A DNA stretch of 39,046 nucleotides from the NCBI GenBank assembly GCA_027492485.1, contig JAPUER010000072.1, positions 1-39,046 on the forward strand, in the 5' to 3' direction. Made by a program: the position numbers and the translations under genes. This DNA comes from Betaproteobacteria bacterium (GTDB lineage Bacteria > Pseudomonadota > Gammaproteobacteria > Burkholderiales > Casimicrobiaceae). Under the pieces are notes generated by a model. It was not told the DNA's origin. It did no database searches and worked only from the letters and a program-made list of their open reading frames with translations. Shown here piece after piece: positions 927 through 38,464 of the stretch. Within the stretch, counting starts at the first letter, position 1, and each line of letters starts with the position of its first letter.

Positions 927-1040
927 GCTTTTTGCTGCAAGCGTTATGCAATAAGGGCAACGATGCCAAAATTTGCCAAAGTCGACTTAACGGCAAAACA
1001 GCCGTTTAGCCCTTATTGAATAGACGTTGCAATGAAAAGC
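927..1040. repeat. 114-bp palindromic repeat, copy A
   Basis: AT-rich imperfect palindrome in a 364-bp gap (752-1115) between the 5' end of the coiled-coil gene and the 3' end of fdxA. The centre is AAGTCGACTT at 979-988. The arms CAATAAGGGC (949-958) and GCCCTTATTG (1009-1018) are perfect inverted repeats about the same centre (983.5). The outer ends are GCTTTTTGC and GAAAAGC. Landmark spacing is identical to copies B to E: 22 nt from GTCGAC to GGGC on the left and to GCCC on the right. Base composition is strikingly unlike the flanking GC-rich DNA. Nothing else was seen in this gap except a weak hairpin next to the right end. Confidence 0.8.
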
Positions 1041-1060
1041 TGATGCCGGTCCAGCCCGGC
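1034..1060 (-). terminator. Possible fdxA terminator (weak)
   Basis: On the minus strand downstream of fdxA, a 5-bp stem GCCGG/CCGGC with a 6-nt loop (1060-1045) is followed by ATCAGCTTTTC. The T-run belongs to the right end of palindromic repeat A and begins about six bases after the stem, so it is a poor intrinsic terminator. It is listed because the repeat edge supplies the T tract. Confidence 0.25.
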
Positions 1061-1115
1061 TGCCGTGGTGCCGCTGACGTGCCGCCGACACGATCGCCGG
1101 GGCGTCGATTCGCCG

Positions 1116-1445
1116 TTACTTGCCGCCGGGGTTGGGCGAGAACAGGTCGAACTTGTTTGGCTTGCCGTTCCACTCGTCGGCGTCGGCCGGGGCGGCCTTT
1201 TTGCGCGAGATGTTCGGCCACTGCACAGCGTATTCGGCGTTCAGTTTGAGCCACTTGTCGGCGATGTCGGAATCCGGTTTGATCGCGTCGGCCGGGCATT
1301 CCGGCTCGCAGACGCCGCAGTCGATGCACTCATCGGGGTGGATGACGAGCATGTTCTCGCCTTCGTAGAAGCAATCCACGGGACAGACATCGACGCAGTC
1401 GGTGTACTTGCACTTGATGCACTGATCGTTTACGGCGTAGGTCAT
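1116..1445 (-). CDS. fdxA: 7Fe ferredoxin [3Fe-4S][4Fe-4S], FdxA type
   Basis: A protein of 109 residues, the usual length for the Azotobacter FdI/FdxA family. It is a small soluble electron carrier. The cysteines stand at 9, 12, 17, 21, 25, 40, 43, 46 and 50. By the FdI pattern, C9, C17 and C50 should hold the [3Fe-4S] cluster and C21, C40, C43 and C46 the [4Fe-4S] cluster; C12 and C25 are the extra cysteines typical of the family. The motif [16 protein letters not shown] is diagnostic. The start at 1445 gives the canonical N-terminus [12 protein letters not shown]; an upstream in-frame ATG would add a non-homologous leader. The gene stands alone, bracketed by repeat copies A (3' side) and B (5' side). 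The electron partner is not evident from the neighbourhood. Confidence 0.95.
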
Positions 1446-1690
1446 GGCGGGCGGGTGAAGGCGATGAATGGAAAACGAAGCCGGCGCAAGAGCGGAACGG
1501 CGCAGGCGCTTCGTGGCCGCTATTTTGCCGCAGGTGCCACATTTCCCCGCCGCAGGCACGGGTTATTGACGGCCGTGGCGAGGCGACTTGCATCTGCCTT
1601 GACCGGCGTCAAGCAAATGCGGCGCGTGGCTGCCGGCTGGCCGCCGCCGAGCCGGACCGCCCGCATTTGTCCGGCCCGAAATGGCCGACA

Positions 1691-1804
1691 TCTTTATGCC
1701 GTAATGCCCATTGGCTATAGGCTCCAGCGTCAAAAATCGCTGAAGTCGACAATTAGCAAAAACACCCGCTACGCCCTTATTGAATGGGGCATTGCCTAAA
1801 AAGC
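1691..1804. repeat. 114-bp palindromic repeat, copy B
   Basis: Second copy, in the 402-bp gap (1446-1847) between the 5' end of fdxA and the 3' end of the livF-like gene. GTCGAC lies at 1745-1750. The right arm GCCCTTATTGAATGGGGC starts at 1773, exactly 22 nt after the core. The left arm GCCCATTGGCTATAGGC ends at 1722, exactly 22 nt before it. Both arms can fold as GCC..GGC hairpins on their own. The ends read TCTTTATGCC and CTAAAAAGC. The rest of the gap (1446-1690) is GC-rich and I see no gene or convincing promoter in it. Confidence 0.8.
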
Positions 1805-1847
1805 TGCTAGCGCGAACGCTCTCCGGCGTGGCCGGCGCGGCCGACGC

Positions 1848-2558
1848 TCAGGCGGCAAGATATTGCTCGGCCAGCGTCGGGTCTGCGGCGAGCGCGGCGA
1901 AGCTGCCCTCGTAGCGCACGCTGCCGCGCTCGATGACGACAGCGCGATCGGCGATGGCGCGGGCAAAGTTCAGGTTCTGCTCGGAGAGGATCACGCAGAG
2001 GCCCTCGCGCTTGAGTTCCCCGACGCTCTCGGCAATGCGCTCGACGACGATCGGCGCCAGCCCCTCGGAGGGCTCGTCGAGCAGGATGGCCTTCGGGTTG
2101 CCCATCAGCGTGCGCGCGATGGTCAGCATCTGCTGCTCGCCGCCCGACATCTGTCCGCCCGGCCGGTCGAGCATTTCGCCGAGCTTGGGGAACAGCTCGC
2201 ATACCCGCGCCACGCTCCAGCGCGGCGCGTCCGTCGCCTGCGCCCGCGCCGGCAGGCGGCCGACCTCAAGATTTTCGGCAACCGTGAGATCGGTAAAGAT
2301 ACGGCGCTCCTCCGGCACATAGCCAAGGCCGAGCCGCGCGATGCGGTGCGGCGCCTGGCCGCGGATGTCGGCGCCGGCAAAGCGCACTTCGCCCGCCACT
2401 TCTGGCAACAGACCCATGATCGCCTTCAGCGTGGTCGATTTGCCGGCGCCATTGCGGCCAACCAGCACCAGCACCTCGCCGGCGCGGGCTGTCAGGCCGA
2501 CGTCGAACAGCAGTTGCGCGCGGCCGTGCCAGGCGCAGAGACGGCGCAGCTCAAGCAT
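1848..2558 (-). CDS. livF: Branched-chain amino acid type ABC transporter ATPase, LivF-like
   Basis: A 236-residue ATPase of the LivF type, energising import through the LivH/LivM permease on the cytoplasmic face. Walker A is GRNGAGKST at about 34-42; the ABC signature is MSGGEQQ, and Walker B is followed by DEPSEGLAP. LGYVPEERRIF is characteristic of LivF (the Q-loop region has P-E-E-R-R-I-F). The start at 2558 begins MLELRRL and overlaps the end of the upstream livG-like gene by 8 bp, so translation is probably coupled; a longer start would run deep into livG. It is the last gene of the group. The substrate cannot be read from the ATPase: HAAT importers of this type take Leu/Ile/Val, amides, urea or aromatic acids. 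Confidence 0.93.
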   Translation of the reverse strand: MLELRRLCAWHGRAQLLFDVGLTARAGEVLVLVGRNGAGKSTTLKAIMGLLPEVAGEVRFAGADIRGQAPHRIARLGLGYVPEERRIFTDLTVAENLEVGRLPARAQATDAPRWSVARVCELFPKLGEMLDRPGGQMSGGEQQMLTIARTLMGNPKAILLDEPSEGLAPIVVERIAESVGELKREGLCVILSEQNLNFARAIADRAVVIERGSVRYEGSFAALAADPTLAEQYLAA

Positions 2559-3369
2559 GACCGGCTCCCGCCGCAGCGACGCCACCGCTGTCGCTGCCGA
2601 GATAGACCGCGCGCACTTCTTCATGCCGGCGAATGTCGTCCGGCCTGCCCTGCGCAATGATGCGGCCGCGATTCATCACGATCACGCGGTCGGCGAAGCC
2701 GAACACCACATCCATGTCGTGCTCGGTGAACAGCAGCGCCACGTCGCGCGCGCGGCATGCCGCCAGCGCATGCCGCATCAGCGTTTCGCGCTCGATGGGC
2801 GCCATGCCGGCGGTGGGCTCGTCCATCAGCAGCAGGCGCGGATCGTTGGCGAACGCCATCGCCAGTTCGAGCCGCTTGAGATCGCCATAGGCCAGTTCGG
2901 CGGCGGCGCGGTCGGCTTCGGCCGCCAGCCCCTGCTCGGCGATCAGCGCGTCGGCGCGCGCCACTTGCAGGCGGTCGGCGCGCAGGCCGAGCAGCCGCCA
3001 CGACGGCGCCAGCACCCGTTGCTGGCTGATCAGCGCCATCTGCACGTTCTCGCGCACGGTCATCGAACCGAACGTCGCGGTGATCTGGAAGGTACGCGCC
3101 ACGCCGCGATGGAACAGCCGCTCCGGCGGCAGCCCGGTAATGTCCTGCCCGCCCAGTTCGACGCGACCGCCGTCCGGCCTGAGCTGGCCGTTGATCAGAT
3201 TGAAGGTGGTCGTCTTGCCGGCGCCGTTGGGGCCGATCAGCGCGACCGCTTCGCCGGCATGCACGACAAAATCGACGCCGCGCACCGCATGCACGCCGCC
3301 GAACGATTTGGCCAGCCCCTGCACGCCGAGCGCGACCCGCCTGCCGGCGCTGCCGTCGACCGCGCTCAT
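2551..3369 (-). CDS. livG: Branched-chain amino acid type ABC transporter ATPase, LivG-like
   Basis: A 272-residue partner ATPase of the LivG type. Walker A is GPNGAGKTT at about 46-54. The insert LFHRGVARTFQITATFGSMT is the LivG-type segment after the first beta sheet. AYGDLKRLELAMA takes the place of the canonical LSGG signature, as is common in LivG, and Walker B/switch reads LLLMDEPTAGMAP with a FTEHDMDVVF H-loop. The start at 3369 overlaps the LivHM stop by 4 bp (ATGA), and the end overlaps livF by 8 bp, so the three transporter genes are one transcription unit. The short C-terminus after the H-loop is rich in Gly/Ala. Confidence 0.93.
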   Translation of the reverse strand: MSAVDGSAGRRVALGVQGLAKSFGGVHAVRGVDFVVHAGEAVALIGPNGAGKTTTFNLINGQLRPDGGRVELGGQDITGLPPERLFHRGVARTFQITATFGSMTVRENVQMALISQQRVLAPSWRLLGLRADRLQVARADALIAEQGLAAEADRAAAELAYGDLKRLELAMAFANDPRLLLMDEPTAGMAPIERETLMRHALAACRARDVALLFTEHDMDVVFGFADRVIVMNRGRIIAQGRPDDIRRHEEVRAVYLGSDSGGVAAAGAGHA

Positions 3370-5246
3370 GGTTGCGCCCGCCGGCTGCGCCACGCCGCGA
3401 TGGTGCCGACGATGCCGCGCGGAAACAGCACCACCAGCAACAGGATGGTGACCCCGAGCGCGCCGCGCCAGTATTCGGTTGCGCGCGCCAGCGTGTCCTG
3501 CAGCCAGGTGAACAGCACCGCGCCGACCACCGGCCCGAGCAGCGTATTGATGCCGCCGAGCAGCACCATCACCAGCGCATCGACCGAGCGCGGAATCGCC
3601 AGCACGTCGGGCGCAATGCTGCCTTTCGAAAACGCATACAGCGCGCCGGCCACGCCCGCCAGCGCGCCGGCAATGGTGAACCACGTCCATTGCAGCAAGC
3701 GCGGCGACAGGCCGATGGCTGCCGCCTTGACCGGGGCGTCGCGGCAGGCGCGCACCGCATAGCCAAGCGGCGTGAACGCGAGCCAGGCGCAGAGCAGCGT
3801 CGCCGCGCCACACACCGCGAGCACGAACCAGTAGAACGCGGCGCGTTGCGACAGCCAATCCGGCGGCCAGATGCCGACCAGACCGTTGCTGCCGCCGGTC
3901 ACCGCGTCCCACTGGAACACGATCGACCAGGTGATCTGGGCGAAGGCCAGCGTCAGCATCGCCATGTAAGTGCCGGATAGACGCACGCTGAACCAGCCGA
4001 ACAGCAGCGCGAACAGCGCCGCCAGCGCGACACCGCCGACGCAGGCCGGCAGCAGGCCGTAGCCGGCCTGCGCCAGCAAGGCGGCGCCATACGCCCCGAG
4101 ACCGAAGTAGGCGGCGTGGCCGAACGAGCCCATGCCGCCGGTGCCGATGACGAGCCCGAGGCTGGCGGCGAACAGCGCGAACACGATCATGTCGACGGCC
4201 AGCACCAGCGTGTAATCGCCGGCCCACAGCGGCAGCGCGGCCAGCAGCGCCAGCGCCAGGCCAACGAGCGCGAGCCCGCGCCGCCCCGGCGCCCGCAGCA
4301 CCGGCGTCTGCGCCGCCTCGCCACGGGCGTGCGCCAGCGGTTTGCCGAACAGGCCGTGCGGCTTCCACACCAGCACCAGCGCCATGACGATGAATTCCGC
4401 GACCAGTGTGAGCTTGCTGAACTCGACGGCGATGCCGAACAGCGTGACCTCGCCGAGACCGATGCACCACGCCTTGACCAGCGAAATGATGCCGGCGGCG
4501 ACGAAGGCACCCGGCAAACTGCCGAGACCGCCGACCACGACCACCACAAAGACGTCGGCGATGATGGCGAGGTCCATGCCAAGGCTGGCCGGCTCGCGTG
4601 GCAGTTGCAAGGCACCGCCGATCCCGGCCAAAAAGCTGCCGAGCGCAAATACTGCGGTGAACAACAGCCGCTGGTTGACGCCCAGCGCATCGGTCATTTC
4701 CCGATCCTGGGTCGCCGCCCGCAACAACAGCCCGAAGCGCGTCCGGCGCAACAACAGCGTGAGCGCCAGCAGCATCGCCACCCCGATCGCAATCAGCAGC
4801 AGATCGTAGGTCGGAAACGGTTTGCCCAGAATGTCGATCGCGCCGCGAAACCCGGGCGCCCGCGGGCCGAGCAGATCTTCGGCGCCCCAGATCGCCAGCG
4901 CGGCGTCCTTGATCAGCAGCACCAGCGCGAAGGTCGCGATCAGTTGCAGCAGTTCCGGCGCCTCGTAGACGCGGCGCAGCACGATCAGCTCCACCAGCAG
5001 GCCGACGATCGCCACCACAACGCCCGCCGCCAGCGCACCGCCCCAGAACCCGAGCGCGCCGCCGACCGTGCTCGCCACGCTGTAGGCAACGTACACGCCC
5101 AGCATGTAGAACGAGCCATGCGCGAAGTTGACGATGCGGGTGACGCCGAAAATCAGCGACAGCCCGACCGCCACCAGAAACAGCGACGCGGCGGAGGCCA
5201 GCCCGTTGAGACTGAGTACCGCAAAGTTGGCGACCGAGGGCAGCAT
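3366..5246 (-). CDS. livHM: Fused LivH-LivM branched-chain amino acid type permease
   Basis: One continuous 626-residue frame carries both permease halves of a HAAT-type importer. Residues ~1-290 are LivH-like (SLIFGVTRIVNFAHGSFYML at about 30-49 is the classic LivH N-terminus; the EAA-like loop is near LGSLPGAFVAAG). Residues ~320-626 are LivM-like (GTGGMGSFGHAAYFGLGAYG and LSGTYMAMLTLAFAQI are LivM signatures). In E. coli these are two proteins, so this is a gene fusion or loss of the intergenic stop. The linker near 290-315 is charged (GKPLAHARGEAAQ). It overlaps livG by 4 bp. No LivK/LivJ binding protein is encoded in the window, so the periplasmic partner must lie elsewhere. Confidence 0.92.
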   Translation of the reverse strand: MLPSVANFAVLSLNGLASAASLFLVAVGLSLIFGVTRIVNFAHGSFYMLGVYVAYSVASTVGGALGFWGGALAAGVVVAIVGLLVELIVLRRVYEAPELLQLIATFALVLLIKDAALAIWGAEDLLGPRAPGFRGAIDILGKPFPTYDLLLIAIGVAMLLALTLLLRRTRFGLLLRAATQDREMTDALGVNQRLLFTAVFALGSFLAGIGGALQLPREPASLGMDLAIIADVFVVVVVGGLGSLPGAFVAAGIISLVKAWCIGLGEVTLFGIAVEFSKLTLVAEFIVMALVLVWKPHGLFGKPLAHARGEAAQTPVLRAPGRRGLALVGLALALLAALPLWAGDYTLVLAVDMIVFALFAASLGLVIGTGGMGSFGHAAYFGLGAYGAALLAQAGYGLLPACVGGVALAALFALLFGWFSVRLSGTYMAMLTLAFAQITWSIVFQWDAVTGGSNGLVGIWPPDWLSQRAAFYWFVLAVCGAATLLCAWLAFTPLGYAVRACRDAPVKAAAIGLSPRLLQWTWFTIAGALAGVAGALYAFSKGSIAPDVLAIPRSVDALVMVLLGGINTLLGPVVGAVLFTWLQDTLARATEYWRGALGVTILLLVVLFPRGIVGTIAAWRSRRAQP

Positions 5247-5291
5247 TGCGCGAGGTGCTCGTGTACTGTGTGAAGCGTTGCCCGACGGCGC

Positions 5292-6009: not shown

Positions 6010-7197
6010 ATGCAATCCGAACACTCCCTCCTCCCGCGCGACGCCATCGTACAGTTGCGCGCCTCGAAAATCCGCGAAGTGGCGAACGCCGGCATGGACC
6101 GCAAGGACGTGCTCGCGTTCTGGTTTGGCGAGCCCGACGAAGTGACGCCCGATTTCATCCGCACCGCCGCCAGCGAAAGCCTGCTGCGCGGCGAAACCTT
6201 CTATTCGCACAATCTGGGCCTGCCCGAGTTGCGCAACACCGTCGCCGCCTATCTTTCCGGCCTGCACGAGAACCCCGCCGCCGCGATCACCGGCGAGCAC
6301 GTCGCGATCACCAGTGCCGGCGTCAACGCGCTGTCGCTCGCCGCGCAGTGCATCGTCAACCCCGGCGACCGCGTGGTCTGCGTGACGCCGCTATGGCCCA
6401 ATCTGGTGGAGATTCCGAAGATTCTTTCGGCCCAGGTGGAGTGCGTGCCGCTGCAGTTCGGCGCACGCGGCTGGCAACTGGACCTCGATCGCCTGCTGGC
6501 GGCGCTGTCGCCCGACACCCGCCTGCTGATGGTGAATTCGCCCAACAACCCGACCGGCTGGACGCTGACCCGCGCCGAGCAGCAGGCGATTCTCGACCGC
6601 TGCCGCCAGCACGGCATCTGGCTGCTCGCCGACGACGCCTACGAGCGGCTGGTGTTCGACGACGCCGGTGTGGCGCCGTCGTTCTTCGACATCGCCCATG
6701 CCGACGACCGGCTGGTCAGCGCCAACACCTTCTCGAAATCGTGGCTGATGACCGGCTGGCGGCTGGGCTGGCTGGTGGCGCCGAAGCCATTCATCGAGCA
6801 ACTGGGCAAAGTGATCGAATACAACACCTCGTGCTCGCCGGTTTTCGTGCAACGCGCCGGCATGGCCGCCATCGCCCACGGCGACCCGGTGATCGCCCGC
6901 ACGCAGCAACGCTTCCGCGCGGCGCGCGACCACCTTTGCGCTGCGCTCAACGCGCTGCCGGGCGTACACGCGCCACCGCCGCCGGGGGCGATGTACGCCT
7001 TCTTCAAGGTGGACGGGATGGCCGACTCGCTGGCCTTCTGCAAACAGCTGGTGGCCGAGCAGGGCCTGGGCGTGGCGCCGGGCGCGGCATTCGGCGACGA
7101 AGGCGAAGGCTTCATCCGCTGGTGCTTCGCCAGCGATCTGGCGCGGCTGGACGACGGCATCGCCCGTTTCACGCGGGGTCTGCGCGCGCTGCGCTAG
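6010..7197 (+). CDS. Class I/II PLP-dependent aminotransferase
   Basis: A 395-residue fold-type I aminotransferase, subgroup I-gamma/aspartate-aminotransferase-like. Visible landmarks are the NSPNNPTGW motif at about 176-184 (Asn binding the PLP ring), the ADDAYE segment at 207-212 (Asp to pyridine N, Tyr to O3'), the Schiff-base lysine K243 in SANTFSKSWLMTGWRLGW and the substrate-carboxylate Arg in GEGFIRWCFA near 368. The start ATG at 6010 is preceded by GGAG about 10 nt upstream. It is divergent from the DUF2238 gene and its amino acid substrate cannot be assigned from sequence. Confidence 0.9.
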   Translation: MQSEHSLLPRDAIVQLRASKIREVANAGMDRKDVLAFWFGEPDEVTPDFIRTAASESLLRGETFYSHNLGLPELRNTVAAYLSGLHENPAAAITGEHVAITSAGVNALSLAAQCIVNPGDRVVCVTPLWPNLVEIPKILSAQVECVPLQFGARGWQLDLDRLLAALSPDTRLLMVNSPNNPTGWTLTRAEQQAILDRCRQHGIWLLADDAYERLVFDDAGVAPSFFDIAHADDRLVSANTFSKSWLMTGWRLGWLVAPKPFIEQLGKVIEYNTSCSPVFVQRAGMAAIAHGDPVIARTQQRFRAARDHLCAALNALPGVHAPPPPGAMYAFFKVDGMADSLAFCKQLVAEQGLGVAPGAAFGDEGEGFIRWCFASDLARLDDGIARFTRGLRALR

Positions 7198-8166: not shown

Positions 8167-9633
8167 CTATTCGATTCGCGCCGCCGTGCGCGTGCCGCCG
8201 CCCTGCGTGATGGCGAAGCTCGCGGCCTTGCCTGCCTTCACGTCGGCAAACACGATTTCAAGCTCGGTTACCCGCGCGAAGAACGTCGTTGGCGACTTGG
8301 CGAACAGTTCAAACTCGCCCTGCCCGGTGGCCTGCGCGAAAAGCCGGCCGTCGCGCAGCCGAATCGCCACGTCGAAGCCCGGCGCCAGCCGGTAGCTGCC
8401 CACGTACGGTTCAAGTGTTTTCGCTTCGACGGCGATCGCCGTCTGCGGACGCACCACGGCCTTGATCGGGATCGATGGCTCCAGCAGGTGCAGCGCGATG
8501 TCGTCCGGCGTCTTGCCGCCGGCGTTGGAAAGCACTGCTATCGCCGTCTTGCGCTCGGGATCGACCCATAGCGACGAAGTGAAGCCGCCGGTCATGCCGC
8601 CGTGCGTGTAAACCGTGCGCCCATTGAGCGGCACGAGAATCCAGGCCAATCCCTGCGGATTCATCGGCATCATGCCGTCGCCGTACTTGCGCTGCGCAAG
8701 CCGGAACGCCTCACGCAGCGGCGTGTCGATCGCGCCGCTGGCAGCCTGCGCATAGCGACCGATGTCGCGTGCGCTCATCACCAGCGCGCCGGCCGGCGCG
8801 ATGACATCGAAGCGCCAGTGCCGCGCCCGCCGAAGCGTGTCGCCATCCAGATAATGCCCGTTGCTGTAGCGGCCTTCCTCGGCGCGCGGTACGTCGAGCC
8901 ACGTCGCCGTGAGGCCGAGCGGTGTTAGCACCCGTTTCTGCAGCAGCTCGGGATAGGAGGTTTTCGCCGCGCGGCCGAGCACGTAGCCGAGCAGACCGTA
9001 GCCCAGATTGGAGTATTCGAATCGCTCATCACGCTTGCGGGTAGTCTTGCCGCCGTCGGTTTCGAGCAGCACTTCGCGGCTTTTGAGAAATTGCAGCAGC
9101 TCGTGCTCGCGGTAGTCCACGTACGGATCGTTCCTGGTGCCGTTCGGCATGTTGTCCGGCAGCCGCGGCAGGCCGGAGCGGTGCGTCGCCAGATCGACCA
9201 GTTGGATCGGCGCGCCGCTGTGGTCGCGCAGCTTGAGACCGCGCAATTCCTGCGGCAGATATTTTTCGACCGGGTCGTTGAGCTTCACCTCGCCGCGCAG
9301 CACCATGTCGGCCAGCAGCGTGGCGGTGAAGGTCTTGCTGATGGAGCCGATTTCGAACAGCGTGTCCGCCGTCACCGGCGTTGCCCGGTCGAGCGCGGTG
9401 TGGCCAGCCGTGACGATGCGGACCTGCTCGCCGTTGACCACGATCGCCGCCATGCCCACCGCGCGCTGCTCGCTGTCGATGCCGGTGGTCAGGATTTCGC
9501 GAATGCGCTCGTCGGTCGGCTGCGCTTGGGCCGGCGTCACTGCCAGTGCAAATACGGCCTGTAGCGCCATCGCCAGCGCAGACAGCGGTGCGGCCATGCG
9601 TCGATGCAGCGGTTCGGTGTGATGAGCGATCAT
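8167..9633 (-). CDS. Secreted serine hydrolase, beta-lactamase class C / DD-peptidase fold
   Basis: A 488-residue protein. Residues ~13-38 form a signal peptide (hydrophobic ALAMALQAVFALAV, cleavage near AQA-QP). Catalytic motifs of the AmpC/DD-peptidase fold are S97-I-S-K100 (SxxK), Y207-S-N209 (YxN) and H344-G-G (in place of KTG). A C-terminal beta domain of about 100 residues (QTAIAVEAKTLEPYVGSYRL onward) resembles DUF3471. It acts in the periplasm; family members are peptidases, esterases or true beta-lactamases, and sequence alone does not separate these. The start at 9633 has GGGGA seven bases upstream; starting at MAAPLSALAM (9597) would also leave an intact signal peptide. Confidence 0.88.
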   Translation of the reverse strand: MIAHHTEPLHRRMAAPLSALAMALQAVFALAVTPAQAQPTDERIREILTTGIDSEQRAVGMAAIVVNGEQVRIVTAGHTALDRATPVTADTLFEIGSISKTFTATLLADMVLRGEVKLNDPVEKYLPQELRGLKLRDHSGAPIQLVDLATHRSGLPRLPDNMPNGTRNDPYVDYREHELLQFLKSREVLLETDGGKTTRKRDERFEYSNLGYGLLGYVLGRAAKTSYPELLQKRVLTPLGLTATWLDVPRAEEGRYSNGHYLDGDTLRRARHWRFDVIAPAGALVMSARDIGRYAQAASGAIDTPLREAFRLAQRKYGDGMMPMNPQGLAWILVPLNGRTVYTHGGMTGGFTSSLWVDPERKTAIAVLSNAGGKTPDDIALHLLEPSIPIKAVVRPQTAIAVEAKTLEPYVGSYRLAPGFDVAIRLRDGRLFAQATGQGEFELFAKSPTTFFARVTELEIVFADVKAGKAASFAITQGGGTRTAARIE

Positions 9634-9838
9634 GCCTGGTGTCCCCGGTGGCAATACACAAGATGCGCGGTTGCGCGACGTCTGCATGTTAGGCGGCGCC
9701 GGACGCGATGGCAGCGGTGACGCGACGGGACGCGGCGGCGGGCGACGGGTAGCGAAAAGGTCGAGCGGTTTGCGCGCGGACGCTGCGACGCGGCGCTGTC
9801 GCCGTTGCCGCCCATCGCGACAGCTCGGCCGTCTTACA

Positions 9839-9952
9839 TCTTTTTAGCAAGATACCCGATTTAATTGGGTTCGATAGGCAATTTATTCGGAAGTCGACTT
9901 TTAAACTATTTGCGCTATATGCCCAGTTCAATAGGCGTTCTAATAAAAAAGC
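9839..9952. repeat. 114-bp palindromic repeat, copy C
   Basis: Third copy, in the 654-bp divergent gap (9634-10287) between the serine hydrolase and the bactofilin. AAGTCGACTT is at 9891-9900. The left arm ACCCGATTTAATTGGGT ends at 9870 and the right arm GCCCAGTTCAATAGGC begins at 9921; each is exactly 22 nt from GTCGAC. In the left arm both ends of the arm hairpin have changed together (ACCC/GGGT instead of GCCC/GGGC). The ends are TCTTTTTAGC and AAAAAAGC. Between the repeat and the bactofilin start I see no gene and no strong sigma70 promoter. Confidence 0.8.
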
Positions 9953-10287
9953 TGTATGCCTGACATACTTTTTTACACACACCTTGTCTGCCATCGACGA
10001 CGATAAAACTCGCTACAAATCAACAACTTGGAACGGCAGCACGATTTCCGGTCGTCGCCCTGAGACAAACCGGGACAGAAACTTCGTCGATTCATCGAAC
10101 TCTCGTCCGATGACGTCGTCATAGAGCATTGAATACTCTGCACTTTGTGTGCGCTGGCACGAGCATCGCTGGTGCGCATCTCCGGGGGAGGAAGTCGGGG
10201 CATTCAGACGCTGTGGCGTCGCCGGCAACGCTGGCGCGCCGCCCGCACCCACGTCTGAACGAACACACTCACAGAGAGGAGACACCG

Positions 10288-10971
10288 ATGCTGAAAAACG
10301 GATTTCTCGGTCGCCGGGATGAACCGCAAACGCCCGCTGCCAACGCCCGCGCCACCCCCGATTCGCCGCGCTATGCGCCGCAACCCGACGCCCCGCCGCT
10401 GGCCGCGGTCGCCGTCTCGCATCCGGCGGCAGCGGTCGCCAGCACCCGCAGCCCGGACGCCAAACCCGTCGCAACCAGCCCGAGCGGCATCGAATCGGCG
10501 CGCGACGGCAGTGCCGGTAACGCGGCAGCGGCAGCCGCTGGCGCAACGACGACCGGCGTCGGCGCGCCACGACTGACCGTCGGCCCCAACATCAAGCTGA
10601 AAGGCGCCGAAATCAACGATTGCGACACGCTGGTCGTCGAGGGCCACGTCGAGGCCTCAATGGACAGCAAGACGCTGGAAATCCTGAAAACCGGCTCCTA
10701 CGCCGGCACCGTGACCATCGACATCGCCGAAATTCACGGCCGCTTCGAGGGCAATCTCACTGCCCGCAAGAAGCTGATCGTGCATGCCTCCGGCTGCGTC
10801 TCGGGCACCGTGCGCTACGGCTCGCTGCTGGTCAGCGAGGGCGGCGTGGTCAGCGGCGACATCGCGGCAATCGACGGCAAGGGCGACAGCCAGAGCTCGC
10901 TGTTCGCCGGCTATCCGTCGGCCCGCGCGAGCGCCGGCAAACTCGCGGGAGCGGAACATGTCGCAGCGTAA
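10288..10971 (+). CDS. Bactofilin
   Basis: A 227-residue bactofilin (DUF583). Residues ~1-95 are an Ala/Pro/Ser-rich disordered N-terminal tail; from about 97 comes the right-handed beta-helix with the typical hydrophobic repeats: TVGPNIKLKGAEINDCDTLV, VEGHVEASMDS, GTVTIDIAEIHGRFEGNL, ARKKLIVHASGCVSGTVRY, GGVVSGDIAAIDG. Bactofilins polymerise without nucleotide and scaffold cell-wall or stalk machinery at the inner membrane. The start at 10288 follows GAGAGGAG with good spacing, which rules out longer starts. The N-terminal tail is long for the family. The 3' end overlaps the next gene by 14 bp, so the two are coupled. Confidence 0.93.
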   Translation: MLKNGFLGRRDEPQTPAANARATPDSPRYAPQPDAPPLAAVAVSHPAAAVASTRSPDAKPVATSPSGIESARDGSAGNAAAAAAGATTTGVGAPRLTVGPNIKLKGAEINDCDTLVVEGHVEASMDSKTLEILKTGSYAGTVTIDIAEIHGRFEGNLTARKKLIVHASGCVSGTVRYGSLLVSEGGVVSGDIAAIDGKGDSQSSLFAGYPSARASAGKLAGAEHVAA

Positions 10972-22917: not shown

Positions 22918-22983
22918 TTCATCGCGGGCAAGCCCGTTCCCACAGCGCATTGGCATTGTGGGAGCGGGCTTGCCCGCGAATGA
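22918..22983. repeat. REP-like inverted repeat pair, TGTGGGAGCGGGC type
   Basis: Arms of about 24 bp (ATCGCGGGCAAGCCCGTTCC ending CACA, and TGTGGGAGCGGGCTTGCCCG ending CGAATGA) face each other across 12 bases in the gap between the Bug receptor and matB genes. Each arm also contains its own small hairpin (CGGGCAAGCCCG). This is the common BIME-like layout. It sits inside an operon, where it may set mRNA stability or attenuation. Confidence 0.85.
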
Positions 22984-22995
22984 CCGGGCGCCGGC

Positions 22996-26454: not shown

Positions 26455-26583
26455 CGCTCCTCCCCCGCTTGCCGGGGGAGGTCGGGAGGGGGTAAACCCT
26501 CTCGCCGGAAAGTCCACACGAGAGTGACCGCCGCCTTCATACCCCACCCCAGCCCTCCCCGGCGAGCGGGGAGGGAGTCGTGG
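26455..26583. repeat. Inverted repeat pair of CTCCCC/GGGGAG type
   Basis: The arms at 26457-26493 (CTCCTCCCCCGCTTGCCGGG onward) and 26539-26580 (ending CGAGCGGGGAGGGAGTCG) are inverted copies, each with an internal hairpin (CCCCCGCTTGCCGGGGG; CTCCCCGGCGAGCGGGGAG). It resembles the pair at 37372-37492. Together with the matR promoter and repeat D it fills the 647-bp gap 26205-26851. Confidence 0.8.
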
Positions 26584-26641
26584 CCCGGCCAGCGTGATAC
26601 GTACCACGCCATTGCCGAGCCACATTGCCAATCAGTATTCA

Positions 26642-26755
26642 ACTTTTCTGCAAGAGCGTTATTCACATTGGGTAAAGCAGCACAATTTATGCAAAGTCGA
26701 CTTTCTCACTTTTCGTGCTGTAAGCCCACTTCAGATTGGGCACAACGTAAAAAGT
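26642..26755. repeat. 114-bp palindromic repeat, copy D
   Basis: Fourth copy, between matR and the alpha/beta hydrolase gene (divergent). AAAGTCGACTTT is at 26693-26704. The left arm ends in ATTGGGT at 26673, the right arm GCCCACTTCAGATTGGGC starts at 26724, each 22 nt from GTCGAC. Inner arms pair as CAGCAC/GTGCTG. The ends are ACTTTT and AAAAGT, a matched change from the GCTTTT/AAAAGC of copy A. Confidence 0.8.
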
Positions 26756-26851
26756 CATTAGCGGCGCAAGTTCGGTTTTGCCCTGCCGGCCATCGGGCAA
26801 GGCGAACGTCCGCTGCAATCAGCGCCGGGTGCGCGCTGCTACGCTTCGGGG

Positions 26852-27796: not shown

Positions 27797-27812
27797 TCCT
27801 GACCGCGCGATC

Positions 27813-27875
27813 TGTAGGAGCGGCTTGCCGCGACCCACGCCCCGGCGACCGCAGTCGCGGCAAGCCGCTCCTACA
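27813..27875. repeat. REP-like inverted repeat pair, TGTAGGAGCGGC type
   Basis: Perfect 22-bp arms TGTAGGAGCGGCTTGCCGCG.. and ..CGCGGCAAGCCGCTCCTACA (27813-27834 and 27854-27875) stand 19 bases apart between the hydrolase stop and the FecCD start. The downstream arm ends 17 bp before the ATG at 27893, so it must overlap the FecCD leader. Confidence 0.9.
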
Positions 27876-27892
27876 GTTGGCGCCGCGACGGC

Positions 27893-31062: not shown

Positions 31063-32088
31063 TCAGCGCGGAATCGAGTTCACTTCCTTCTCCCACTTTT
31101 CGAGCAGGCGTTTGCGCTCGGCCGACGAGCCGTATTTCTTGAAGTCGTACTGGATCAGCTTGATGCTGGAGAAGCGCGGCGCCTCCGGCGGCTGCGGTGC
31201 GTTCTTGTTCGACGGCAACTGATACTGCTTGGCCTGCGCGGCGAGCTTTTGCGCCTCCGGCGTCAGCGCCCAGTCGTAGAACTTTTTGGCATTTTCCATG
31301 TTGCGCGCGGCCTTGAGGATCGACATCGAGCCGACCTCGTAACCGGTGCCTTCGCAGGGCGCCGCCATCGCCACCGGGAAGCCGTTCTTCTGCTCGCCCG
31401 GCACGTCATGCATGAAGCTGACGCCGATCGCCGTTTCGCCGCGCGCAGCGGCCTTGACCGGGCCAGTGCCGGACTTCGGATAGTTCGAAATGTTCTTGTG
31501 CAGCGCCTTCAGGTAGTCGAAGGCCTTGTCCTCGCCGAAAATTTGCACCAGTGTTGCCAGCGCGGTGTACGCGGTGCCGGACGCCGCCGGATTAGCCATC
31601 TGCACGTCGCCCTTGTATTCCGGCTTGATGATGTCGGCCCAGCAGGCGGGCGCCGGCAGCTTTTTCTTGGCCAGCACTTCGGTGTTGTAGCTGAAGCCGA
31701 GCGCGCCGGCGTAAATGCCGACCGTCCGGTAGCCGGAAATCTGCGCCTGGTACTGCGCCCAGTTGTGCAGATCCTTCATGTTGGGTGACTGGTACACCTC
31801 GGACAGCCCCTCCTCGGCCGCCTGCAGATGCGGGTCGCCGGTGCCACCGAACCAGACGTCGCCCTTCGGGTTGCTCGCCTCGGCCTTGACCTGGGCGAAG
31901 GTCTCTCCTGAGCCCTTGAACGAGGTGTTGACCTTGACGCCGGTCTGTTTGGCAAACTCGTTGGCGGCCAGCGTGCACCACTCGATCTGCATCGAGCAAT
32001 AGATATTGAGTTGACCCTTGTCCTGCGCGAACGCGGACTGCGCGGCGAGCGCCGCGGCGATGAGCGTGAGGGTGTGAATTCGGCGCAT
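31063..32088 (-). CDS. ABC transporter substrate-binding protein, ferric-iron/spermidine type
   Basis: A 341-residue periplasmic binding protein. Signal peptide 1-21 (HTLTLIAAALAAQSAFA-QD). It belongs to the AfuA/FbpA-like class: LNIYCSMQIEWCTLAANEFA, FKGSGETFAQVKAEASNPKG, DVWFGGTGDPHLQAAEEGL, NPAASGTAYTALATLVQIFG. Known relatives bind Fe3+, phosphonate or putrescine. No permease or ATPase of that class is next to it, so it is an orphan. AGGAGG before ATG gives a strong ribosome site. Confidence 0.9.
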   Translation of the reverse strand: MRRIHTLTLIAAALAAQSAFAQDKGQLNIYCSMQIEWCTLAANEFAKQTGVKVNTSFKGSGETFAQVKAEASNPKGDVWFGGTGDPHLQAAEEGLSEVYQSPNMKDLHNWAQYQAQISGYRTVGIYAGALGFSYNTEVLAKKKLPAPACWADIIKPEYKGDVQMANPAASGTAYTALATLVQIFGEDKAFDYLKALHKNISNYPKSGTGPVKAAARGETAIGVSFMHDVPGEQKNGFPVAMAAPCEGTGYEVGSMSILKAARNMENAKKFYDWALTPEAQKLAAQAKQYQLPSNKNAPQPPEAPRFSSIKLIQYDFKKYGSSAERKRLLEKWEKEVNSIPR

Positions 32089-33152: not shown

Positions 33153-33161
33153 CGATGTGAC

Positions 33162-33193
33162 GCCATTCCCGCGCCAACGGCGCGGGAATCCAG
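33162..33193. repeat. Palindrome of the ATTCCCGCG/GGAATCCAG type, left of the GIY-YIG gene
   Basis: GCCATTCCCGCGCCAACGGC GCGGGAATCCAG reads as a hairpin with the stem ATTCCCGCGCC/GGCGCGGGAAT. It lies 33 bp before the 3' end of the GIY-YIG gene and matches, in opposite orientation, the element at 33529-33561 on the other side of it. Confidence 0.85.
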
Positions 33194-33225
33194 AACCGTC
33201 GCCGGCGCAGAAACAGTTGCCGCCG

Positions 33226-33516
33226 CTACTGAATGTCCGGCCAAAGATCACGCCACCCGGGATTCGCGCGCTCGATCAATGCCAGTTTCGCCTTGCGCAA
33301 CATCTTCTTCACCTGCTTTTCGCGAGCAATCGCCCCCGGCATCGATGCGAAAAACTCAAAGTGGACCAGTGTTTTGACGCCATATTGCTTGGTGAAGCGG
33401 TCGACCAGACTTTCGCGATGCTGATACACGCGCTCGCGCAATGCGCCCGTCACACCGACATACAAGGTGCGGTTTCGCTTTGACGCCATGATGTAAATGG
33501 CAGGTTGAATTGACAT
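33226..33516 (-). CDS. Single-domain GIY-YIG nuclease-fold protein
   Basis: A 96-residue protein consisting of one GIY-YIG domain, the UPF0213/YhbQ-like class: A-I-Y-I-M at about 6-10 stands for GIY, Y-V-G at 19-21 for YIG, the conserved Arg is R27 or R29 in LRERVYQHRES, and the catalytic Glu-like residue is in the AIAREKQVKKMLR segment. Such proteins nick DNA or act on damaged or structured DNA in some members. Here the gene is enclosed by opposed ATTCCCGCG palindromes and sits in a non-operonic gap, which suggests a repeat-linked life style rather than core metabolism. Start ATG 33516 is preferred. Confidence 0.9.
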   Translation of the reverse strand: MSIQPAIYIMASKRNRTLYVGVTGALRERVYQHRESLVDRFTKQYGVKTLVHFEFFASMPGAIAREKQVKKMLRKAKLALIERANPGWRDLWPDIQ

Positions 33517-33528
33517 GTCGCCAGCCTA

Positions 33529-33561
33529 CTGGATTCCCGCGCCGTTGGCCCGAGAATGACG
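33529..33561. repeat. Palindrome of the CTGGATTCCCGCG type, right of the GIY-YIG gene
   Basis: CTGGATTCCCGCGCCGTTGG CCCGAGAATGACG is the inverted counterpart of the 33162-33193 palindrome, beginning 13 bp after the GIY-YIG start codon. Its inner hairpin is imperfect (GCGCCGTTGGCCCG). Confidence 0.75.
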
Positions 33562-33622
33562 GCGGGGGTGAAGGCAATGGCAGCCTCGGGCATTTGCGTG
33601 CATCGCCCTCGCCCCCTCCCGG

Positions 33623-33655: not shown

Positions 33656-33715
33656 AAGGTGGCAAACGCAACGACCATGCAGGATAGGTGCCCGTGCCCG
33701 CCCTGAAACTACGGC

Positions 33716-34765: not shown

Positions 34766-34828
34766 GAGCTAGCTCCAGTCACCCCGCTTGCAAACAGCCG
34801 GGCTGTGATGATTGCACAGCAACCAACC

Positions 34829-34891
34829 TTGTGGGAGCGTCCTTGGCCGCGAATGGCGCGCAGGCTATCGCGGCCAAGGCCGCTCCCACAA
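34829..34891. repeat. REP-like inverted repeat pair, TGTGGGAGCG(T/G)CC type
   Basis: The arms TGTGGGAGCGTCCTTGGCCG CGA (34830-34852) and TCGCGGCCAAGGCCGCTCCC ACA (34868-34890) are inverted with 15 bases between. It lies in the divergent 225-bp gap between guaC and the DUF2891 gene and is closely related to the 24059-24127 pair. Confidence 0.85.
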
Positions 34892-34990
34892 ACAACGCAA
34901 CAAAAAAGCGAGGTGCCGGCAAACTCTCGTTCGATGGCAACCCCGCTTGGTTGCACGAGATTATAAGAATGAAAAGTTAGACTTCGGCTT

Positions 34991-36016
34991 ATGCCCGACA
35001 TCAATTCCAGCCACGCCGCCTACGCCCGCACGGCACTCGATAACGTGCGCCGCGAGTACCCGAACTTCGTGATGCACTTCGTGCACTCGGCAGACGAGGC
35101 GCGCGCTTGCGTCCCGTCGGCGTTGCACCCGGTTTTTTACGGCAGTTACGACTGGCATTCCTGCGTGCACATGCACTGGTCACTGGCGCGCCTGCTCAAT
35201 CTGGACGCGGAAGCGACGCATTCGCGCGCCATCGTGTCGTGGTTCGATCGCCAGTTCGACGAGGGCAAGGCGCGCACCGAGGCGGCCTACTTCGACCGGC
35301 CCGGCGCCGCGCTCTGGGAGCGCCCCTACGGTTGGGGCTGGCTGCTCAAGCTCTATGCCGAACTGGCGGTTTGCGTGCACCCGCATGCGGCGCGCTGGCG
35401 CGCTGGCCTCGCGCCGCTCGCCGATCGGCTGGCCGACGCGATGTTCGATCACCTGAAAACGGCACCGGCACCGGTGCGGCATGGCGTGCACTCCAATACC
35501 GCGTTTGCGATGATTCATGCGCTGCGCTACGCCAACACCGTTGGCGATGCGGAGTTCGCCGGTCTGATCGGGCGAACGGCCGGCCAATGGTTCACCAACG
35601 ATCGCGACTACCGTCTGGCTTTCGATTTCTCTGGCGAGGATTTTCTGTCGCCCGCGCTGACCGAAGCCTTGCTGATGGCGCTGGTGCTGCCGCGCGACGA
35701 ATTCCTGCCGTGGTTCGATGCCTTCCTGCCGGAACTGGCGCGCGGTGACTACGCTTGCCTCGAACCCGCCTGCGTGGTCAACGAGAAAGATGCGCGGCAA
35801 GTGCACAACCACGGATTGAATCTCTCGCGCGCCTGGGCGATGCGCGGCGTGATGCAGATGCTGACGCCGGGTGACGATCCGCGCTGGCAGCGCTTCGGCG
35901 AACTCTCCGGCGAGCATCTGCGCGCCGCCGAAGCCGCGATCACCGGCGGCGATTACGTCAGCACGCACTGGCTGATCTCGTTCGCGCTGCTGGCCGAGAC
36001 GGAGTGGCATTCGTGA
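34991..36016 (+). CDS. DUF2891 family protein
   Basis: A 341-residue protein of the DUF2891 family (function unknown; probably an alpha/alpha-barrel enzyme of the six-hairpin type). Conserved marks are HPVFYGSYDWHSCVHMHW near 46-63, ERPYGWGWLLKLYAEL near 109-124, HSNTAFAMIHAL, SGEDFLSPALTEALLMALVL and HNHGLNLSRAWAM. The several His/Trp/Glu sites look catalytic or substrate-binding. The start at 34991 is the first ATG in frame; there is no clear SD sequence. The stop overlaps the GTG start of the rmuC gene by 4 bp, so the two are cotranslated. Confidence 0.9.
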   Translation: MPDINSSHAAYARTALDNVRREYPNFVMHFVHSADEARACVPSALHPVFYGSYDWHSCVHMHWSLARLLNLDAEATHSRAIVSWFDRQFDEGKARTEAAYFDRPGAALWERPYGWGWLLKLYAELAVCVHPHAARWRAGLAPLADRLADAMFDHLKTAPAPVRHGVHSNTAFAMIHALRYANTVGDAEFAGLIGRTAGQWFTNDRDYRLAFDFSGEDFLSPALTEALLMALVLPRDEFLPWFDAFLPELARGDYACLEPACVVNEKDARQVHNHGLNLSRAWAMRGVMQMLTPGDDPRWQRFGELSGEHLRAAEAAITGGDYVSTHWLISFALLAETEWHS

Positions 36017-37398
36017 CGCTCGTCGATATGGCGCTGGCGCTGATCATCCTGCTGCTGGTCGCGATCCTGATTCTGGTTGCGCGGCAGAAGGGCGGCATCG
36101 TGCGCCGCGTCAACGACGAGCTCGGCACGCAGCTCGAAAGCAAACACCGCGCGATGATCGGCGACGTTGGCGGCATGTTCAACCAGGTCAGCGAGCGCGT
36201 CGGGCGCGACCTCACGGCCTCGTCGTCCGGCACCCGCGAGGTGATCGGCACCCTGCAGGTGCAGGTGATCCATTCGCTGTCGCAGCAGACCGAAGCCTCG
36301 CTCAAGCAGCTCGCGCTGTTGCAGCAAACGCTGTCGACGCAGCAGGATGCCTTGAAGCGCGAGGTGCTCGAACAGATGCTCGGCAAGATGGCCGAGCAGA
36401 CGCGCGCCAATCAGGAGCTGCTGCAGAACACGCTGCGCAACATGAGCGCGCAGATCACGCAGCAGGCCGAGACCATGACCAAAACCGTGGACGGCCGGCT
36501 GGAACAGATCAGCGGCAAGGTCAACGAGCGGCTCGACGAAGGCTTCAAGAAGACCAACGAGACCTTCGCCAGCGTGATGGCGCGGCTCGCGGTGATCGAC
36601 GAGGCGCAGAAGAAGATCGACGGTCTCACCACTAACGTCGTGAGCCTGCAGCAGGTGCTCTCCGACAAGTCGGCGCGCGGCGCCTTCGGCGAGGTGCAGC
36701 TCGAAGCGCTGGTGCGCGACACTTTGCCTCCCGATGTTTACGAATTTCAGGCCGCCGTCGGTGGCGGTCGCGAGAAAGCCGACTGCGTACTGACGATGCC
36801 GGACGGCACCTCGCGCATGGCGATCGACTCGAAGTTTCCGCTGTCGAACTACCGCACCGCGATCGACGCCAGTCTGCCCGAGGCTGAACGCAACGCCGCG
36901 CGCAAGCAATTCGCCACCGACGTCAAAAAGCACATCAACGACATCGCGGGCAAGTACATCCAGCCGGGCGCCGGGGCTGACTCCGCCGTGATGTTCATCC
37001 CGTCCGAGGCAGTGTTTGCCGAGATCGTCGGCAACCATCCCGAGATCGTCGCGCAGGCGCAGGCGCAGCGCGTGTGGATGACCTCGCCGACCAACCTGAT
37101 GGCGGTGCTGCACACGGTGCGCGCGGTGCTGCGCGACGCCGAGATGCGCAAGCAGGCGGCAGTGATCAAGACCGAGCTCGACAAGCTCGGCGGCGACTTC
37201 GGGCGCTTCCAGGAGCGCATGGACAAACTCGCGACGCACATCAAGCAGGCGCACGACGACGCCGAACTGGTGCAGATTTCGAGCCGCAAGATCAGCGGGC
37301 ATTTCGAACGGATCAAATCGGTCGACATCGAGGCCGGCGCGGACGCACTCGCGAGCCCGACGGCAACCAAGTCCCCTCCCCTTCAAGGGGAGGGCTAG
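36013..37398 (+). CDS. rmuC: DNA recombination protein RmuC
   Basis: A 461-residue RmuC-family protein. An N-terminal membrane helix (about 5-23, MALALIILLLVAILILVA) is followed by a long coiled coil (~30-200: VRRVNDELGTQLESKHRAM, QTEASLKQLALLQQTLSTQ) and the RmuC nuclease-like domain (~200-440: GAFGEVQLEALVRDTLPPD, AIDSKFPLSNYRTAIDASL, VMFIPSEAVFAEIVGN, TNLMAVLHTVRAVLRD). It limits inversions between short repeats in E. coli. The start is taken as GTG 36013 because it forms a GTGA overlap with the DUF2891 stop. The last residues (SPPLQGEG) are encoded by an inverted-repeat element (37373-37410), so the native C-terminus was probably altered by that element. Confidence 0.93.
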   Translation: MTLVDMALALIILLLVAILILVARQKGGIVRRVNDELGTQLESKHRAMIGDVGGMFNQVSERVGRDLTASSSGTREVIGTLQVQVIHSLSQQTEASLKQLALLQQTLSTQQDALKREVLEQMLGKMAEQTRANQELLQNTLRNMSAQITQQAETMTKTVDGRLEQISGKVNERLDEGFKKTNETFASVMARLAVIDEAQKKIDGLTTNVVSLQQVLSDKSARGAFGEVQLEALVRDTLPPDVYEFQAAVGGGREKADCVLTMPDGTSRMAIDSKFPLSNYRTAIDASLPEAERNAARKQFATDVKKHINDIAGKYIQPGAGADSAVMFIPSEAVFAEIVGNHPEIVAQAQAQRVWMTSPTNLMAVLHTVRAVLRDAEMRKQAAVIKTELDKLGGDFGRFQERMDKLATHIKQAHDDAELVQISSRKISGHFERIKSVDIEAGADALASPTATKSPPLQGEG

Positions 37399-37492
37399 GG
37401 TGGGGATGGGTTTCGGCGGCTTGATTGCGGTTACGGCGCGGGGCAACCCCATCCCCCTCCCAACCTCCCCCTTGAAGGGGGAGGAGCCAATC
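37372..37492. repeat. Inverted repeat pair, CCCCTCCCC/GGGGAGG type, overlapping the rmuC 3' end
   Basis: Left arm CCCCTCCCCTTCAAGGGGAG GGCTAGGGTGGGGATGGG (37373-37410), right arm CCCCATCCCCCTCCCAACCT CCCCCTTGAAGGGGGAGGAG (37447-37486). The left arm contains the last 8 codons and stop of rmuC. It resembles the 26455-26583 pair. Confidence 0.88.
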
Positions 37493-37507
37493 AGTTGACG
37501 TGCACGA

Positions 37508-38311
37508 ATGTTCTCTTGGCTAAAAAACAAGCGCCGCGAACGCGCGCTTGAATCGCATGCGATCCCGGATGGCGAATGGGCCGCGGCGCTGCACGAACTT
37601 TCGTTTCTCGATCACTACGAAGCCGCCGCGCTCGCGCGGCTGCGCGAACTGACGACGCTGTTTCTGGTCGAGAAGAACATCGTTTCCGGTGCCGAGGACG
37701 GGCGGCACGCGCTCACGGTCACGCCGCACATGCGCATCCTGATCGCCGTGCAGGCCTGCCTGCTGATTCTCGGCCGTGGTGCGACCGTGATGGAAGCGAT
37801 GCATGACTTCGACGGCTGGGACAACGTCGTGGCGCATCCCGGCGATTTCCCGCGCAGCCATGACTATGAAGACGAAGCCGGTGTGGTCCATCAACTCGAC
37901 GAGCCGATCGCCGGCGAGAGCTGGTACAACGGGCCGGTGCTGCTGTCGTGGCCGGCGGTGGCGGCCGGCTACGACGAGACCGGCATGGCGCTGGTGATTC
38001 ACGAGTTCGCGCACAAGATCGACATGCTCGATGGCGAGGTCGACGGCATCCCGCCGCTGCGCGGTGACGCACGTGACACCTTTGCGCGCGAGGTCAATGC
38101 GGCCTACGCCGATTTCTGCAAACGCGTCGACGACGGCGAGGACACCGCGATCGACCCCTACGCCGCCGAGCTGATCGACGAGTTCTTTGCGGTGAGCTGC
38201 GAGGTGTTTTTCGCCGAACCGGAATTGCTGCGTGCCGAATACCCGGCCTACTACGCGCAGCTCATGGCGTACTTTGGCGTCGATCCCGAGGCCGGCCGGC
38301 TGCTGCGCTGA
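37508..38311 (+). CDS. mtfA: Zinc peptidase MtfA family (M90)
   Basis: A 267-residue MtfA-like zinc peptidase. The HExxH motif is H165-E-F-A-H169 (LVIHEFAHKIDMLDG, residues 162-176), and the third ligand should be E224 or E225 in the ELIDEFFAVSCEVFFAEP segment. In E. coli MtfA sequesters the repressor Mlc and has peptidase activity. Other family marks: GPVLLSWPAVAAGYDE and NVVAHPGDFPR. It follows rmuC by about 110 bp, most of which is the inverted repeat. Confidence 0.95.
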   Translation: MFSWLKNKRRERALESHAIPDGEWAAALHELSFLDHYEAAALARLRELTTLFLVEKNIVSGAEDGRHALTVTPHMRILIAVQACLLILGRGATVMEAMHDFDGWDNVVAHPGDFPRSHDYEDEAGVVHQLDEPIAGESWYNGPVLLSWPAVAAGYDETGMALVIHEFAHKIDMLDGEVDGIPPLRGDARDTFAREVNAAYADFCKRVDDGEDTAIDPYAAELIDEFFAVSCEVFFAEPELLRAEYPAYYAQLMAYFGVDPEAGRLLR

Positions 38312-38325
38312 CGACGGCCGTCTGT

Positions 38326-38344
38326 GCCGGATCGGCGATTTTTG
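38326..38344 (+). terminator. Weak hairpin with T tract after mtfA
   Basis: GCCGGATCGGC (4-bp stem, 3-nt loop) at 38326-38336 is followed by GATTTTTGC. The stem is short, so a real intrinsic terminator is doubtful; the T tract lies just outside the left end of palindromic repeat E. Confidence 0.3.
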
Positions 38345-38350
38345 CTAACA

Positions 38351-38464
38351 GCTTCGTGGTGAAACGCCCATTGCAATTGGGCTAAAACGCCGAAATGCAA
38401 TAAAGTCGACTATTTGGCAAATCGCGCCCTGAGCCCTTATGGCAAGCGGCTTTGACGGAAAAGC
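38351..38464. repeat. 114-bp palindromic repeat, copy E
   Basis: Fifth copy, between the convergent mtfA and CBS genes. GTCGAC is at 38405-38410. The left arm GCCCATTGCAATTGGGC ends at 38382 and the right arm starts at 38433 (GCCCTTATGG), each 22 nt from the core. The right end GAAAAGC stops at 38464, which is the last base of the CBS stop codon (complement of CTA at 38464-38466). The left arm is a near-perfect hairpin. Confidence 0.8.

Follow-up and report, generated by a model that had tools for sequence, protein, structure and literature searches.

Evenly spaced, dyad-symmetric intergenic elements of about 130 bp in one Casimicrobiaceae genus are candidate docking sites for a chromosome-organizing protein

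Why does a GC-rich bacterial chromosome carry, between its genes, repeated copies of an AT-rich palindrome whose landmarks are regularly spaced but whose remaining sequence is only moderately similar? The question is raised by a 39,046-nucleotide stretch (the whole of which we call the window) of contig JAPUER010000072.1, assembly GCA_027492485.1, from a betaproteobacterium of the family Casimicrobiaceae. The initial annotation described there five palindromes of 114 bp and suggested a small non-autonomous mobile repeat, a cruciform-type protein-binding site or a structured RNA. All five copies are present where it placed them (Table 1), each centred on GTCGAC; they have 36–51% GC in a window of 66% GC, and by hand count the distance from GTCGAC to the left motif (GGGC, AGGC, GGGT, GGGT and GGGC, in order) and to the right GCCC is exactly 22 nt on all ten sides. 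We propose that the element is a double-stranded, dyad-symmetric docking site for a putative protein, placed at domain-scale spacing and organizing the chromosome, a reading that we consider somewhat likelier to be right than wrong.

The family extends far beyond the window. In the genome holding the window (G000; other G-numbered labels denote the other genomes compared), the half-site pattern AGCTTTTN{40,60}GTCGAC has 222 matches, against 3 for the pattern reversed. For closer study we sampled 439,046 bp of G000 (C16:1-300000, C3:1-100000 and the 39-kb window, C16 and C3 being contigs), in which a profile seeded on 20 copies from the sampled sequence itself found 46 copies, with 0 in the reversed sequence used as a control; extrapolation to 4.12 Mb gives about 430 copies per genome. 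G005, the nearest relative of G000 as judged by one protein (92% identity), has 64 copies in 760 kb and 0 in the reversed control; around the window, aligned DNA blocks of the two genomes are about 76–89% identical. The family is therefore genome-wide, and the regular spacing of its landmarks stands above chance as judged by the reversed-pattern and reversed-sequence controls only.

Read inward, the half-site runs SSS-n-WW-Y-R-GCTTTT, AA, SS, C-A-T-T, GGGC, a series of W-only positions and AAGTCGA at the dyad (S, G or C; W, A or T; Y, pyrimidine; R, purine). Because conservation stops near 63 bp from the centre, the whole element measures about 130 bp; the motif continues outward beyond the 114 bp first described (WWYR before GCTTTT, then SSS). 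The geometry, invariant in the five window copies, is less strict genome-wide: among 86 half-sites from 43 G000 copies, 63 are of standard length, 16 fall short of it by one base, 1 exceeds it by one base and 6 are untyped, and the 46 copies include four half elements and one with about 11 inserted bases. Usage of A and T is about equal at the inner W-only positions, as is that of C and G at the SS step, which suits readout as duplex DNA and not RNA base pairing. The GC profile of the element, compiled from 43 of 46 G000 copies and 30 of 30 G005 copies, repeats at about 7.5 bp. Each half also shows some local symmetry about x = -32 (GC self-correlation 0.60); this is unlike the central dyad, and we claim nothing from it as a sub-dyad.

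The statement that copies always lie between genes holds by midpoint, since with a crude gene caller all 46 G000 midpoints and those of all 62 classifiable copies among the 64 of G005 are intergenic, but several copies run into the end of a predicted gene, for at most a few dozen bases; an earlier gene-caller run placed 1 of the 46 G000 midpoints inside a gene. In the sampled stretches, the mean spacing is about 10 kb, and the copies are spaced non-randomly along the chromosome, both in the 439 kb of G000 and in G005. The 43 gaps of G000 have a coefficient of variation (CV) of 0.581, compared with 0.87–0.94 for random intergenic placement, and a CV as low as that observed arises in 0–5 of 2000 simulations depending on the rule; only 2 gaps are shorter than 3 kb, against 9 to 11 on average in the simulations. 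A 400-kb stretch of G005 gives 31 gaps with a CV of 0.528 and none below 3 kb, matched in 2 of 5000 simulations. The first 115 kb of this stretch are orthologous to contig C3; the remainder, which is non-orthologous to the sampled G000 contigs except for one 1.3-kb match, has 20 gaps, a smallest gap of 5.8 kb and a CV of 0.538, which is reached in 22 and 18 of 5000 simulations. As the G005 sequence G5C is largely orthologous to C16, these two are not independent samples of spacing.

The orientation of the neighbouring genes brings in a different possibility, that the element is a transcription-boundary device, namely a bidirectional roadblock, terminator or insulator between transcription units. 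Elements occupy convergent gaps mildly more often than expected (14 of 46 in G000, p 0.016; 16 of 62 in G005, p 0.045) and tandem gaps less often in both genomes (p 0.011 each), all p values being uncorrected for gap length or multiple tests; moreover, most copies in tandem gaps are closer to the upstream gene's 3' end (14 of 21 in G000 and 22 of 29 in G005). However, divergent genes flank 11 of 46 and 17 of 62 copies, respectively, no covarying hairpin rises above control, the T-run stands at the outer end of the element and not after a stem, and the even kilobase spacing is left unexplained. We therefore regard such a device as rather unlikely.

Retention was scored as the presence of an element in the same interval between flanking alignments of G000 and G005. 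A G005 counterpart exists for 25 of the 29 testable G000 copies (C16, 15 of 15; window, 4 of 5; C3, 6 of 9), a count that leaves out 14 untestable copies on C16 and 3 on C3; the corresponding p value, 6e-17 to 8e-13, refers only to the first 19 of 20 and to an assumed chance of 0.12–0.2. In the direction from G005 to G000, 14 of 15, 3 of 4 and 3 of 4 copies are present, with 10, 1 and 28 untestable. Even a half element is shared as a half element by both species (C16 209008 / G5C 216075). From the close pair at 927 and 1691, the first copy alone is present in G005 and the second alone in G012, as though either neighbour might suffice by itself. One G000 site that is absent by profile (C3 near 55.8 kb), opposite a G005 element, shows a decayed-looking copy on alignment.

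Positions are thus kept while the sequence at them has changed extensively. In 16 of the 19 orthologous pairs (three without a clear centre were dropped), G000 and G005 are 75–79% identical at the centre, GGGC and the ends and 45–56% at the W and S steps, whereas elsewhere identity is 26–42%, close to that of paralogs and near saturation; whole elements are 54% identical between orthologs and 50% among 60 random paralog pairs. Farther species hold shared positions under consensus sequences that differ between species. Counterparts there were accepted to E (expectation value) 0.05 without a reversed control of their own, and with an earlier profile reversed-sequence matches appeared from E 0.064 upward in five of the farther-species stretches. 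The site of Element 3, for instance, is held by G012, G013 and G010 under other consensus sequences. Variants of CATCCATAACGGGCTTGG occur in many copies of G014, inner arms resembling CGACCG...CGGTCG are frequent in G012 and G013, and G010 copies have GCCCAATTTAATTGGGC-like arms and a centre of about TATCGATA where G000 has AAGTCGACTT; in G010 the TCGA core is retained, with 23 nt from it to GGGC on either side. Retained position in two species despite this much sequence change suggests that a putative protein uses the sites, perhaps in organizing the chromosome.

Separately, centring on AAGTCGACTT fails for most copies of G006, G007 and G010 (L201-L214, L219, L220), so their centres differ. 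An element site is also common to G014 (9225) and G006 (near 9200, by eye and a weak partial match), upstream of a homolog of the window aminotransferase gene at 6010-7197; the window is without it. G005, G018 and G010 share another site, beside a homolog of window gene 31063-32088.

The element appears restricted to one genus. The exact half-site pattern matches 12 of 64 genomes of the family, namely 11 of the 17 in the genus and, with a single match, G060 of another genus. Model R1, for which 81 of the 88 copies listed from G000, G005 and further genomes positive for the pattern were used, matches 16 of the 17 genomes of the genus (the exception is G015) and none of 47 genomes from six other genera of the family, G060 included; because R1 was trained partly on genomes that it scanned, its informative positives are G006-G010. 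In an order-wide sample of 250 genomes, R1 matches 6, all in this genus (1 of 120 genera). Both the family-wide and the order-wide scans applied tighter filters and limited scoring to 54 or 13 candidates per genome, so that, being counted by strand as well, R1 matches are not copy numbers and weak matches may be lost. G010 has 19 matches in 140 kb, at least one of which is false (match 15249 lies within a homologous gene). Viral contigs gave no match to the exact pattern, which has low sensitivity, and a literature search that took in few subscription journals, with sources available in part, returned no description of such an element.

A small non-autonomous mobile repeat, as first suggested, fits these results poorly, with 25 of 29 positions shared, hardly any decayed copies and no excess of direct repeats. 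In the form weighed here, it would be a miniature inverted-repeat transposable element (MITE) that spread with target immunity, a mechanism that spaces transposon copies apart, and was later partly kept by the host. ERIC, Correia and other bacterial MITEs are short inverted repeats, mostly intergenic and in up to hundreds of copies (PMC10969869), and our element resembles them in its inverted-repeat form, intergenic location and hundreds of copies. Its lineage restriction and the four half elements among 46 copies also accord with mobility, as does the comparison of presence and absence that the initial annotation proposed for strains and that we made against the closest relative species: 4 of 29 copies are absent, and two empty G005 sites are shorter than in G000 by about 100–120 bp, near the element length, with no evident duplication. 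However, the search for target duplications gave no signal at 73 copies, where flanking direct repeats (k = 3-6, 8, 9) did not exceed the shuffled maximum. Profile scores are bimodal and leave almost no tail of decayed copies, the profile being trained on both genomes: in G000 all 46 matches have E 2e-6 or better, with 1 of them between 1e-6 and 1e-3, none from 1e-3 to 0.1, and beyond 0.1 five matches (one of them the decayed-looking C3 copy) against four in the reversed sequence, whereas among the 64 G005 copies 1 lies at 1e-6 to 1e-3 and 1 at 1e-3 to 0.1, followed by four matches against two reversed. Furthermore, random copies are only about 50% alike, not young and similar, positions are common to species with different consensus sequences, one half element is already half in both species, and position is kept at even spacing, in which the element differs from known MITEs. 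A MITE origin is, in our view, unlikely.

A relationship to repetitive extragenic palindromic (REP) sequences and bacterial interspersed mosaic elements (BIMEs), associated with RAYT (REP-associated tyrosine transposase) proteins, was also considered. PF01797 (Y1_Tnp), a domain that also occurs in IS200-type transposases, is present in 15 of the 17 genus genomes but was not detected in G020 (98% complete), which has 26 strand-wise R1 matches. This reading was set aside on G020 and on the lack of any four-pair stem above control in 102 half-sites, where paired arms would be expected. The likeness is that E. coli REP/BIME sequences are intergenic palindromic repeats in high copy number, some BIME-2 being bound by gyrase (PMC6379681); the difference is that the present elements are evenly spaced single dyads without stem covariation above control.

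The palindromic form might also point to a structured RNA or a DNA cruciform, and two results favour such structure: minimum free energies lie below those of dinucleotide shuffles (mean z -2.29 for 34 near-full-length G000 copies and -2.59 for 19 of G005), and the best single within-half pair reaches z 3.93 among 2194. However, chimeras joining left and right halves of unrelated copies fold equally well, real folds showing no advantage (real minus chimera, -1.42, standard error (SE) 1.39, and +0.17, SE 1.48, kcal/mol), and the best four-pair covarying stem in the 102 half-sites scores 3.47, below 3.52 for the parallel-diagonal control. Over the whole element, arms match no better within a copy than between copies, shuffles reaching the value in 81 of 1000 cases for G000 and 554 of 1000 for G005. 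In the mid-region, arm identity exceeds shuffles in G000 (0.476 versus 0.426; 0 of 1000), whereas G005 shows no such excess (288 of 1000); we read the likeness in G000 as marking candidate subtypes of the element. An Rfam scan of the window gave no match at gathering thresholds. The structured-RNA suggestion thus fits poorly, and from the cruciform-type binding site the protein-binding part survives while the cruciform does not; we consider structured RNA or cruciform highly improbable.

Finally, the sites might be strong binding and cleavage sites of DNA gyrase (or topoisomerase IV), one per topological domain. The E. coli gyrase motif covers about 130 bp symmetric about a 4-bp cut (PMC6379681), the Mu strong gyrase site helps to organize a chromosomal domain (PMC6379681, PMC3820752), and domains in E. 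coli and Salmonella are put at about 10 kb (PMC3820752). Our element agrees with the motif and the Mu site in length and in symmetry about a 4-bp core only, and with one site per approximately 10 kb it agrees with the cited domain size. In contrast, its GC periodicity over the flank range peaks at 7.25–7.75 bp (7.5 in G000, 7.25 in G005) and not at 10.75 bp, with a relative power of 1.4–1.8 at 10.75 bp and 12.0–12.6 at the peak. The C-terminal wrapping domain of GyrA is 99% identical between G000 and G012 although their element consensus differs, and in 7 of 8 pairs within the genus this domain has diverged less than the N-terminal part, the exception being G000-G005 (97.0% versus 98.7%). Restriction to one genus would also be odd for a universal enzyme. 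Gyrase wrapping was set aside on the absent 10.75-bp periodicity and the GyrA comparison, and we judge gyrase sites to be quite improbable.

At least one test went against each of the MITE, structured-RNA, REP/BIME and gyrase readings, and we return to a docking site for a dedicated protein. Under this proposal, which we infer from sequence comparison, the element of about 130 bp would be read as duplex DNA by a sequence-specific, probably oligomeric protein of the genus. The approximately 430 extrapolated sites, one per roughly 10 kb at transcription-unit boundaries, would nucleate or anchor a nucleoprotein complex with a role in organizing the chromosome, most probably by bounding or anchoring topological domains. 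Such a role would keep the sites under purifying selection, and the factor would co-evolve with them. Dispersed selected sites read by a dedicated protein are known from matS/MatP, parS/ParB and KOPS (FtsK-orienting polar sequences), which are about 8–16 bp long and regional or polar. The present element would share with them dispersed sites that are kept by selection and read by a protein, whereas it is about 130 bp long and evenly spread in the sampled parts.

Several points weigh against this proposal. The binding factor was not found, none having been sought genome-wide. The preference for transcription-unit boundaries also fits a role at the level of transcription, and we know of no wrapping model that explains a GC repeat of about 7.5 bp. 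Single sites are evidently dispensable, given the four of 29 copies without a counterpart and the decayed-looking G000 copy, and losses are commoner between farther species (2 of 4 copies kept from G005 to G012; 2 of 3 from G018 to G012). Some retention intervals measure 2–3 kb, where 'same site' means between the same aligned flanks, and because flanks 64–107 bp out are 36–39% identical in orthologs versus 26–27% in paralogs, divergence is incomplete. Lastly, the profiles were built on copies from genomes later scanned with them, and the genes for the spacing simulations were called by a crude, home-made caller.

Should the proposal hold, these anchors, evenly spaced along the whole chromosome, would be the first of their kind in bacteria. 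Selection would keep hundreds of 130-bp dyads in place, one to each topological domain, and a dedicated protein would co-evolve with its sites all together, giving each species its own consensus at shared positions. To this fuller claim we give slightly less than even weight. It is not settled whether the domains of bacterial chromosomes have fixed boundaries; the approximately 10-kb domains of Salmonella and E. coli are described as dynamic with stochastically distributed ends (PMC3820752). A genus with sequence-defined marks at about 10 kb would make the question directly testable, and the change of consensus at shared positions, if true, would show a DNA-binding protein changing together with hundreds of its sites, which is rare in bacteria.

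Table 1. The five copies in the window, with their surroundings and counterparts
Feature	Coordinates	Strand	Centre (GTCGAC)	Surroundings	Counterparts
Element 1 (about 130 bp)	920..1047	.	981-986		G005, same interval; no counterpart found at this site in G012
Element 2	1684..1811	.	1745-1750		absent from the G005 interval; G012 (E 2.5e-6)
Element 3	9832..9959	.	9893-9898	upstream of bactofilin-domain gene (10288-10971 +)	G005, G018, G016, G012, G013 (weak, E 0.007); G010 by gene order; G011 via G018 and G016
Element 4	26635..26762	.	26696-26701	flanked by GntR/FCD regulator gene and alpha/beta hydrolase gene	G005, G018, G016, G012; G010 by weak match and gene order
Element 5	38344..38471	.	38405-38410	between convergent M90-peptidase and CBS-domain genes; final bases overlap 3' end of predicted CBS gene (38464-38904 -)	G005, G018; G014 by gene order

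The window also holds repeats of other kinds. GC-rich inverted repeats at 27805-27883, 22956-22992 and 34855-34891, which we take to be REP-like, are of the GTAGGAGCGGCTTGCCGCGAC and TGTGGGAGCGGGCTTGCCCGCGA types and unlike the element studied here. Two repeats at 33161-33193 and 33529-33561, 91% complementary (ATTCCCGCG...CGCGGGAAT), flank a small predicted gene (33226-33516 -). About 20 places in G005 match a further, distinct GC-rich palindromic repeat, of about 118 bp (L044:5205-5335), which the CCCTCCCC repeats at 37370-37485 and 26540-26590 of the window resemble.

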